A DNA stretch of 64,000 bases from an uncultured Alphaproteobacteria bacterium (lineage in GTDB: Bacteria > Pseudomonadota > Alphaproteobacteria > HIMB59), in contig CACGPU010000004.1 in the NCBI GenBank assembly GCA_902575065.1, positions 39,767 through 103,766 on the forward strand, in the 5' to 3' direction. Each line of letters begins with the position of its first letter. Positions within the stretch are counted from its first letter, which is position 1. This document shows positions 22,286-25,818 of the stretch, piece by piece. The notes beneath the pieces were generated by a model. The model did not search any database. It had not been told where the DNA came from and saw only the letters and a list, made by a program, of their open reading frames with translations. Position numbers and translations under genes: made by a program.

Positions 22286-22841
22286 AAAACAAATTCGAAA
22301 ACATCACCTGGACCTAAGAATGCAACTAGGCACTTCAGATTTAAATATTTTTTCTAATATAATAAATTCAAAAATATTAGATTTAATTGAAAAAATTAAT
22401 CCAAATAGTTCTGTTGGTTTATTTTATCCATATAAGAATGAAGTTGATGTATTGAGAATTTCTAGTGATTTAATAAATAAAAATATCAAATGTTCACTTC
22501 CCAAAGTAATATCAAAAGGGTCCTCATTAAAGTATTTTGAATACAACCCTTATAGTCCAAATTTAGAAAAAGGTTTCAGCGGTATTATGGAACCTAAGGG
22601 TGAAAAGACATTAGATCCTGATATAATTATTGCATCATGCTCCGCATTTAACGAACAAGGTTTTAGAGTAGGCTATGGAGGTGGTTTTTTTGACAGAACT
22701 ATTGAAGAATTGAGAAAAAAAGGAAATTTAAAAACTATTCTAGCTGCTTTTGAAATTCAAAAAACCAACTACAATTTTCAGGAGAGTTTTGACCAAAAAG
22801 TAGATTACATTTGTTCAGAACAAAAAATCTATTCTTTATGA
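22278..22841 (+). CDS. 5-formyltetrahydrofolate cyclo-ligase
   Basis: GLFYPYKNEVDV, AFNEQGFRVGYGGGFFDRTIEEL motif. Confidence 0.93.
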   Translation: MNKKQIRKHHLDLRMQLGTSDLNIFSNIINSKILDLIEKINPNSSVGLFYPYKNEVDVLRISSDLINKNIKCSLPKVISKGSSLKYFEYNPYSPNLEKGFSGIMEPKGEKTLDPDIIIASCSAFNEQGFRVGYGGGFFDRTIEELRKKGNLKTILAAFEIQKTNYNFQESFDQKVDYICSEQKIYSL

Positions 22842-23653
22842 ATTTTTTGGTGATAGGAGATGTTGTTGGAAGGTCAGGTAGAACAGCTCTTAAAGAAAAT
22901 TTAAAAAAGATACAAGATCAATTTAATATCAGCTTTACAATAATTAATGCTGAAAATTCAGCTGGTGGTTATGGACTTACAGGAAAAATATATGAAGAGC
23001 TTATAAGTTGGGGAGCTGATGCTATCACTTTAGGAAATCATGCTTGGAAACAAAAAGAGATCATAGAATATATGGATCAAAACCCAGATCATAATATTAT
23101 CAGACCTTTAAATTTCGAAGTTGGATCTCCTGGTAGGGGGTTTAAAATTTTCACACATGAAAATGGAAAAAGAATATTGGTAAGTCAAGTTCATGGTCAA
23201 ACATTTATCGACCTTCCTTTAAGTAACCCTTTTCATTCTATTGATACACAACTTTTATCTATGATTAATGACCATAAAATAGATTATTCATTTTTAGAAG
23301 TACATGCTGAAGTAACATCTGAAAAAAATGGTATAGCTCAAAATTATGATGGAAAATTTACAGCAATATATGGGACTCATGTTCATATTCCAACCTCAGA
23401 CGCTAGGGTGTTAGAAAAAGGCACTTGTTTTCAAACAGATATTGGCATGACAGGAGATTATAATTCTGTTATTGGTATGAAAAAAGAAAGCGCAATCAAA
23501 AGAATGAGAACTGGGTCAAACTCTCACAGACTGGAACCTGCAGAGGGATTGGCAACTATTTCTGGAGCGGTCATTACTACAAATTTAGGGGATAAAAATT
23601 CAATTCAATCTATTCAAATAGGTGGTGTTTTGGATAGTAATTTATTATCTTAG
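22838..23653 (+). CDS. ymdB: YmdB family metallophosphoesterase
   Basis: MNFLVIGDVVGRSGRTALKENL, NAENSAGGYGLT, ITLGNHAWKQKEI, GTHVHIPTSDARVL. Confidence 0.92.
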   Translation: MNFLVIGDVVGRSGRTALKENLKKIQDQFNISFTIINAENSAGGYGLTGKIYEELISWGADAITLGNHAWKQKEIIEYMDQNPDHNIIRPLNFEVGSPGRGFKIFTHENGKRILVSQVHGQTFIDLPLSNPFHSIDTQLLSMINDHKIDYSFLEVHAEVTSEKNGIAQNYDGKFTAIYGTHVHIPTSDARVLEKGTCFQTDIGMTGDYNSVIGMKKESAIKRMRTGSNSHRLEPAEGLATISGAVITTNLGDKNSIQSIQIGGVLDSNLLS

Positions 23654-23656
23654 CTC

Positions 23657-24397
23657 ATGGCAGGACATTCAAAATTTAAAAATATTCAATATCGTAAAGG
23701 TGCTCAGGACAAAAAAAGAGCAAAACAATTTGCAAAAATTGGAAGAGAAATTCAAATAGCCGTGAAGATTGGAGGAACTGATCCAGAGTCCAATCCAAGA
23801 TTGAGACTAGCAATAACAAATGCTCGAAGTGTAAATATGCCAAAGGATAATGTAGATAGAGCTATTAATAAAAATAATAATGAAGCTTCTGATTATTCAG
23901 AGGTTCGATATGAGGGGTATGGTCCATTTGGAACAGCTTTTATAGTTGAGGCCTTAACAGATAATAAAAATAGAACAGCATCAGAAATTAGATCTATTTT
24001 TTCAAAGAATGGGGGAAATTTGGGGGAGACAGGAAGTGTGAGCTTTAATTTTAATAAAGTAGGAGAAATACAAATCAAAAAAGAAATTGACGATAGTGCA
24101 CTGGAGGATTTACTTGACCATGGCTTAGAGGATTATAATACAGATGACGATGTAACATATCTTTATTCTTCTTTTGAGGAATTAGCATCTTTTGAGAAAA
24201 TTTTAGTAGATAAAAAGTTTGACATTGAAAGTGCAAATATTATCTGGAAGCCAAATTTAACTGTAAAAATTGAAAAAAAGGAAGATCTTGACAAGCTTAT
24301 TAGATTAAATGAAGAGTTAGAGGATAACGATGATGTTCAAAATTGTTTTTCAAATCTTGATTTTGATAGTGAATTACTAGAGGTTAATAATGCCTGA
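23657..24397 (+). CDS. yebC: YebC/PmpR family transcriptional regulator
   Basis: MAGHSKFKNIQYRKGAQDKKRAKQFAKIGREIQIAVK, MPKDNVDRAI, NRTASEIRSIFSKNGGNLGETGSVSFNF. Confidence 0.97.
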   Translation: MAGHSKFKNIQYRKGAQDKKRAKQFAKIGREIQIAVKIGGTDPESNPRLRLAITNARSVNMPKDNVDRAINKNNNEASDYSEVRYEGYGPFGTAFIVEALTDNKNRTASEIRSIFSKNGGNLGETGSVSFNFNKVGEIQIKKEIDDSALEDLLDHGLEDYNTDDDVTYLYSSFEELASFEKILVDKKFDIESANIIWKPNLTVKIEKKEDLDKLIRLNEELEDNDDVQNCFSNLDFDSELLEVNNA

Positions 24398-24713
24398 TAA
24401 AGCTTGGAAAAATAGGGAAAGACTTGTTGCAAAGTTTTTTGGAGGTTTGAGAAATGCTCTTAGTGGGATCAATTCAAAAGTTACTCATTCTGATGTAATT
24501 CACGATAATTTATTCATTGAGTGTAAATTAAGAGCTAAACATACAGCTATTAAATTATGGGATGATACAAAATCTTTAGCAGATAAGGAAAAAAAGACCC
24601 CAGTCATTGCATTATGTGAAAAAAATAGACCTGGTTTTTGGATAATGGTACATTCAGATGATTTTGAGAAGGTCTCTAAAGAACTTAAAAATAAAAATAT
24701 AATTGATGAATAA
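24390..24713 (+). CDS. small PD-(D/E)xK-like nuclease / putative Holliday-junction-resolvase-like protein
   Basis: 107 aa; N-term WKNRERLVAKFFGGLRNALSG then SDVIHDNLFIECKLRAKH (D-X(n)-ExK) and KTPVIALCEKNRPGFWIMVHSDDF; occupies the yebC-tolQ interval. Function inferred from motif pattern. Confidence 0.6.
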   Translation: MPDKAWKNRERLVAKFFGGLRNALSGINSKVTHSDVIHDNLFIECKLRAKHTAIKLWDDTKSLADKEKKTPVIALCEKNRPGFWIMVHSDDFEKVSKELKNKNIIDE

Positions 24714-24719
24714 TAAATA

Positions 24720-25418
24720 ATGGAAGAAGTAGTCAACTTAGCATCCCTTGAAGGTTCGGTAGATTTTTCAATGATGGGAATGTTTTTAAAATCTGACTGG
24801 GTTGTAAAATTTGTAATTATATTGTTAGTTATTTTTTCAATTCAATCTTGGAAGACAATCATTCAAAAAATTTTATTAATAAATAAACTTAAAAAAATAT
24901 CAAAAAAATTTGAAAACCATTTTTGGTCTGGGGTGTCTTTAGATGAGCTATACAAACAAATTGACGAATTTGATCAAGAAAGTTTCTCAAATATATTTAG
25001 AAATATTATGAATGAATACGAAAAATCTCGAATTCAGAAAAATAAAATAGACTCAGCTTTCATTCAAAGACTTTATACCTCTCTTGATTTAAGTATTGCT
25101 GTTGAAGATACAAATTTAAATAAAGGATTGTCTTTTTTGGCTTCCTCTGGATCTGTAGCACCTTTTATAGGATTATTTGGTACAGTTTGGGGAATTATGA
25201 ACAGTTTTCAAGCAATAGCAATTGCTCAAAATACTAATCTCGCTGTAGTTGCACCCGGTATTGCAGAGGCTTTATTTGTAACCGCTTTAGGTCTTTTCGT
25301 TGCTATTCCCTCAACCGCATACTACAACCTCATTACCTCAAAAATCGATAACTATTTGTCAGAGGCTGAGAGTTTTGGGAAGGATTTAGTTAATATAATT
25401 TCACGCCAAGTTAAATAA
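24720..25418 (+). CDS. tolQ: Tol-Pal system protein TolQ
   Basis: SSGSVAPFIGLFGTVWGIMNSFQAIA, IAEALFVTALGLFVAIPSTAYYN. Confidence 0.95.
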   Translation: MEEVVNLASLEGSVDFSMMGMFLKSDWVVKFVIILLVIFSIQSWKTIIQKILLINKLKKISKKFENHFWSGVSLDELYKQIDEFDQESFSNIFRNIMNEYEKSRIQKNKIDSAFIQRLYTSLDLSIAVEDTNLNKGLSFLASSGSVAPFIGLFGTVWGIMNSFQAIAIAQNTNLAVVAPGIAEALFVTALGLFVAIPSTAYYNLITSKIDNYLSEAESFGKDLVNIISRQVK

Positions 25419-25422
25419 TTAT

Positions 25423-25818
25423 ATGAGAAAAAAACATCGACCTGTTTCTAGTATAAATGTTACTCCGATGGTTGATGTAATGTTGGTTTTACTTATTGTG
25501 TTTATGGTCACAGCTCCCCTTCTAACTGTAGGTGTTCCAGTTAATTTGCCAAAAGTTGAGGCTAACTCTTTAGATGCACAAAAGGAACCACTTGAAATCT
25601 CAATTAATGAAAATAATGAAATTTACTTAGGTGAAGAATTAATACCCTTTGATGAGTTAATATTGAAAGTTAAAACTATTGCAGGCTCAAATACTGACAT
25701 AAGAATTTTTTTAAGAGCTGATACCACAATTAATTACGGAGAGGTAATGAAGGTTCTTGGTGCTCTGAACACATCAGGTTTTTTAAAAATTGCTCTTGTG
25801 ACGAAAAAACCAAGTTAA
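25423..25818 (+). CDS. tolR: Tol-Pal system protein TolR (ExbD family)
   Basis: SSINVTPMVDVMLVLLIVFMVTAPLLTVGVPVNLPK. Confidence 0.95.
   Translation: MRKKHRPVSSINVTPMVDVMLVLLIVFMVTAPLLTVGVPVNLPKVEANSLDAQKEPLEISINENNEIYLGEELIPFDELILKVKTIAGSNTDIRIFLRADTTINYGEVMKVLGALNTSGFLKIALVTKKPS

Follow-up and report, generated by a model that had tools for sequence, protein, structure and literature searches.

A phage-type PD-(D/E)xK nuclease in the yebC-tolQ slot as the probable Holliday junction resolvase of the marine alphaproteobacterial order HIMB59

The 107-aa protein encoded between yebC and tolQ in HIMB59 is probably a PD-(D/E)xK Holliday junction resolvase of phage type that has become the cell's own enzyme, with RecG as the likely branch migrator. 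We also favour, with less assurance, the wider reading that a resolvase from a phage packaging module is the sole dedicated resolvase of an order devoid of RuvABC, that it works without a RuvAB motor and that the yebC-tol slot was swapped independently in at least two further lineages. HIMB59 is among the most abundant marine bacterial orders, and it seems to manage without RuvABC by means of a single small enzyme of phage origin.

We analysed a 64,000-nucleotide stretch of an HIMB59 contig (hereafter the window). The nuclease ORF lies on its plus strand at 24390..24713 (ATG at 24390, stop at 24711-24713), and these coordinates, together with the yebC end at 24397 and the tolQ start at 24720, agree exactly with those given by a first-pass annotation of the DNA. 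The two markers of the ruv slot are encoded on the same strand, yebC of the TACO1/YebC family upstream (23657..24397; Pfam PF01709 1.3e-50, PF20772 5.6e-29) and tolQ downstream (24720..25418; PF01618 8.4e-34), and are flanked by the conserved ymdB (22811..23653, plus strand; PF13277 5.1e-87) and by tolR (25423..25818, plus strand; PF02472 2.8e-30). The nuclease ATG is placed within the final yebC codons, giving an 8-bp overlap with the yebC stop (ATGCCTGA), and a gap of 6 bp separates the nuclease stop from tolQ. By Pfam, the neighbours in the window encode 5-FTHF cyclo-ligase, YmdB, YebC, TolQ, TolR and TolB, and an OmpA-domain (Pal-type) and a PP-loop (TilS-type) protein were confirmed as well. 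As the annotation had stated, none of ruvC, ruvA, ruvB and ybgC lies in the yebC-tolQ interval of the window. Control genomes carry the canonical ruvC-ruvA-ruvB genes in the yebC slot, and the order yebC-ruvC-ruvA-ruvB-ybgC-tolQRAB-pal, which had been put forward as the canonical one, was seen in the control alphaproteobacterium L258 as ymdB-yebC-ruvC-ruvA-ruvB-ybgC-tolQRAB-pal-cpoB-tilS. The flanks and their order are the same as in the window, with ruvC-ruvA-ruvB-ybgC standing in place of the 107-aa gene.

The nuclease ORF is a real gene under purifying selection, as follows from its homologues in relatives, the kept adjacency, dN/dS values of 0.03-0.19 between the window copy and its relatives, and an invariant motif. 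The gene was present in 53 of 60 HIMB59 relatives, which span six genera and both sampled families of the order, and in all 17 of those at least 90% complete. The yebC-nuclease-tolQ adjacency was found at 124 of 125 bacterial loci (some of which overlap), the lone exception being at a contig edge. A copy identical at 99% is carried by the single-cell genome AG-891-G06, which a paper on the HIMB59 order of the Alphaproteobacteria uses for genomospecies HIMB59-1.B (PMC10734472); this supports placing the window in HIMB59. In the class-wide sample the gene was restricted to the order HIMB59 and to one genome (G080) of another RuvC-less family of the class, whose copy is 62% identical and likewise occupies the yebC-tolQ slot. 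The G080 bin has two recA copies and 6% contamination and may be mixed; its yebC-nuclease-tolQ locus is all on one contig. Genome-wide searches with PHROG_2002 lacked sensitivity, recovering genome G037 only, and say nothing on absence.

Loss of the canonical system appears to extend across the order. RuvC (PF02075) was found in none of the 60 HIMB59 genomes, including the 17 at least 90% complete, with a family model that is sensitive, since it detected RuvC in 226 of the 242 genomes sampled from the class. None of the 60 had a match to RuvB (TIGR00635) or RuvA (TIGR00084) that passed the cut-off, and the control genomes exceeded the cut-off in 8, 10 and 10 of 14 cases in the RuvC, RuvB and RuvA searches, respectively. 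The weaker RuvB-like matches in HIMB59, far below the RuvB cut-off, fell in frames of about 420, 540, 660 and 815 aa and look like other AAA+ proteins, with the lengths of ClpX, DnaX, FtsH and Lon; RuvA-like matches were only short stretches within frames of about 920 aa. The possibility that an incomplete draft accounts for the lack of ruvABC, and that the ORF is a chance frame or a remnant prophage gene, draws on the draft state of most of the genomes, which come from single cells or metagenomes, and on the 85% completeness of the window's own genome (1.25 Mb in 27 contigs). It is refuted by the genomes at least 90% complete, in which RuvC was as absent as in the rest, by a 99%-complete single-contig genome of 1,410,127 bp without RuvA, RuvB and RuvC, by the purifying selection on the ORF and by the slot itself, which is fully sequenced; we regard it as extremely improbable.

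The canonical genes are therefore without a match while RecA is kept, in 23 of the 23 HIMB59 genomes tested. RecG was found in 22 of them, the 23rd being a 94%-complete draft, and RuvX (YqgF) was matched in 20. The retention of RecA, RecG and RuvX implies that homologous recombination is kept and that junctions should still form. The first-pass annotation had proposed a search of the whole genome for these genes and had named a canonical ruvCAB elsewhere as evidence against displacement; across the 60 genomes ruvA, ruvB and ruvC had no match above cut-off, the controls were positive, and recG and yqgF were present in 22 and 20 of the 23 genomes tested. Its claim that RuvC was displaced holds in so far as RuvC is missing, but it was too narrow, as the whole of RuvABC is lost.

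The family assignment comes from phage protein profiles. The window protein matched the PHROG_2002 (Holliday junction resolvase) HMM with E=1.3e-8 over residues 3-102 (profile positions 16-120 of 130), and its relatives matched down to 2.5e-10; the "Holliday junction resolvase" label of this family is an annotation and not an assayed activity. Six residues (E10, R21, S25, D35, E44 and K46) are invariant in 44 aligned bacterial and phage sequences, which bears out the D-X(n)-E-x-K pattern noticed earlier, and judged from sequence their layout is that of a PD-(D/E)xK active site. On the plus strand of the window, the codon of E10, within R-E-R, is at 24417..24419, and this residue is a candidate catalytic Glu of the first helix, as in Hjc; D35, a candidate metal-binding Asp of the motif, is encoded at 24492..24494, and E44-C45-K46, the E-x-K of the motif, at 24519..24527. 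An AlphaFold2 model built from the 44 sequences (pLDDT 85.7, pTM 0.79) has a helix at 4-16, a strand at 41-46 with E44-x-K46, a helix at 53-66 and a strand at 70-75. With a helix preceding the invariant D35/E44/K46 and with PD-(D/E)xK enzymes as the top PDB matches, the protein falls in this superfamily. For both AlphaFold models the top PDB match was archaeal Hjc, as a weak one (E 0.034-0.036, TMq 0.44-0.51), and the predicted fold is nuclease-like. Against viral structure models, the best match of the first model was an uncharacterised phage protein (7.6e-6), and several annotated phage Holliday junction resolvases stood lower in the list at weaker E-values.

Other identities found no such match. 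PF02075 (RuvC) gave no match, and at E up to 10 there was no Pfam match to RecU, RusA, VRR-NUC or archaeal Hjc; the sole match in the all-Pfam search at that limit was a sub-threshold one to DDE_Tnp_IS1595. Alignment of the window-protein family with P. furiosus Hjc by hhalign was not significant, and as no relationship to archaeal Hjc could be seen at the sequence level, the protein is not filed as Hjc. NCBIfam yielded no usable hit, the PDB sequence search was uninformative, and PADLOC left the window protein without a match and returned only a Cas4 hint, devoid of meaning, for one phage copy. The first-pass annotation had spoken of a phage/archaeal-type resolvase displacing RuvC in a streamlined genome. 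Displacement is supported by the order-wide RuvABC loss together with the phage family match, and the evidence for the phage part of the reading, from PHROG_2002 and from relatives in terminase modules, is far stronger than that for the archaeal part, for which sequence kinship with Hjc was undetected.

The same slot was found to be refilled elsewhere in the class. Two further families (f43 and f89) are without RuvC (PF02075) and without a true RuvB, and have a single phage-type resolvase gene directly after yebC. In f43 this is a 168-aa PDDEXK_15 nuclease (PF24608 E=2e-21; PHROG_244 4.5e-14), encoded at 1745-2248 of locus L169 and at 969-1472 of L171 (minus strand); a profile comparison between it and the window protein was not significant, homology being undetected. 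In f89 it is a 165-aa RuvC-like PHROG_1770 protein (E=5e-36), encoded at 998-1492 of L173 (minus strand) and 2233-2724 of L178, and followed by ybgC-tolQ in genome G146 (L260) and by tolQ in G244 (L178). At the f43 locus the slot nuclease is followed by tilS and then ftsH, and the tol-pal genes do not lie between. In a 1.5-Mb alphaproteobacterium without RuvC (G249; L262 3141-5300), about 2.1 kb between yebC and ybgC hold no ORF of 60 aa or more, as though ruvCAB had degenerated there.

The strongest circumstantial evidence for a resolvase function is that one slot has received three different resolvases of phage type, with RuvAB gone each time. These parallel cases also bear on the alternative in which RuvX (YqgF) or RecG-dependent pathways handle the junctions and the 107-aa nuclease has another job in the old ruv slot, such as cutting flaps, D-loops or forks, or repairing DNA. 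This alternative gains from the frequency of RuvX and RecG in the genomes tested (20 and 22 of 23), from the many substrates of PD-(D/E)xK nucleases and from the weakness of the PDB fold match to Hjc. However, RuvX also occurs beside canonical RuvABC in an f9 control genome and so does not explain the loss, and three RuvABC-less lineages filled exactly the ruv slot with phage families annotated as Holliday junction resolvases, which points to resolvase function. We therefore hold the alternative to be unlikely and prefer the nuclease as the resolvase, although RuvX, present in nearly all members of the order, could be an additional junction resolver.

The nuclease also has viral relatives. It matched 134 viral loci, and the IMG/VR relatives, from marine phages, are 56-77% identical. 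In the phage loci the gene sits between those for TerS and TerL (both identified by Pfam); nearly all fetched loci contained a relative of TerL and over half one of TerS, many of the loci ending at a contig edge. This position suggests that the phage nuclease belongs to the packaging module, as would fit a debranching enzyme. By TerL, the closest isolate is Pelagibacter phage EXVC032P Baldr (77%), in which no nuclease copy was detected in the stretch around TerL; isolate phages gave two distant nuclease matches only (about 41-44% identity), and the plasmid collection gave none. Phage copies L068, L069 and L070 match only residues 37-103 or so, and the N-terminal portion that bears E10 and D35 is missing or replaced in them. 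In Bacteroides phage BS162P1 (L151 5323-6315) a distant relative (about 44%) lies within an ORF of 330 aa that carries the annotation DNA endonuclease I-HmuI, where the nuclease domain may be fused.

A tree of 107 columns placed the bacterial copies at three places among the phage copies, and a single bacterial clade was not rejected (p-AU 0.073). With so short a tree and this p-AU, phage-to-host transfer, in one or several events, is the favoured but tentative course. The opposite course, in which marine phages captured a cellular resolvase of HIMB59 type, concerns the origin only and not the function; an old origin, implied by the order-wide syntenic bacterial copy, and the unrejected single clade would suit it. 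Against it stand the nesting of the bacterial copies, the wide phage diversity with a fixed position beside TerL, the restriction of the gene to HIMB59 and G080 in the class-wide sample, and the membership of PHROG_2002, which consists of phage proteins. Capture by phages appears rather unlikely to us, and transfer from phage to host is the course we adopt below.

In the proposed history, an ancestor would have acquired the gene from a marine tailed phage, in whose packaging module the enzyme presumably debranches concatemers before packaging. The acquired gene would then have come to occupy the yebC-tolQ slot, with loss of the canonical ruvC-ruvA-ruvB(-ybgC). In the cell, a presumed dimer of the nuclease may bind the four-way junction left by RecA, with D35 and E44 (together with E10) and K46 predicted to coordinate the metal, and symmetric nicks in two opposing strands would yield ligatable duplexes. 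Without RuvAB, RecG is the likely motor of branch migration, to which the junction would be handed over, and cleavage need not be coupled to this migration.

RuvAB and RuvC/RecU are regarded as a near-universal core of bacterial recombination (PMC1193525). In the literature that we searched, the coverage of which is incomplete, we found nothing on point about RuvABC loss in SAR11 or HIMB59, and neither RuvABC loss throughout a free-living order nor a packaging-module resolvase in the ruv slot nor parallel swaps were encountered. HIMB59 thus offers a natural experiment on the minimal needs of junction resolution and on phage genes assuming housekeeping roles, and the claim is directly testable by complementation of E. 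coli ruv mutants.

Among known systems, PHROG_2002 shares with the window protein a near full-length HMM match, the size and the conserved core; the HIMB59 gene differs in being chromosomal, order-wide and part of a bacterial housekeeping operon rather than of a prophage. The nuclease of marine phages (IMG/VR, e.g. L056, L183 and L186) has the same catalytic residues and length at up to 77% identity, but it is placed in the packaging module and the HIMB59 copy in the yebC-tolQ slot. The archaeal enzyme Hjc (1gef, 2wcw, 2wiw) is alike in the order Glu (first helix)-Asp-E-x-K, in its similar size and as the top structural match, whereas significant sequence similarity was not detected and the TM-score is only about 0.5. 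The PDDEXK_15 (L169/L171) and PHROG_1770 (L173/L178) slot genes represent the same kind of event, a phage-type, one-gene replacement of ruvCAB after yebC; the former is not detectably homologous to the window protein and the latter is RuvC-like by its family matches. In Firmicutes, which retain RuvAB, RuvC is displaced by RecU, whose gene is rarely found next to ruvAB (Rocha et al. 2005, PMC1193525). Both cases are non-orthologous displacements of RuvC by an unrelated nuclease, but HIMB59 is also without RuvAB and carries the substitute in the old ruv slot.
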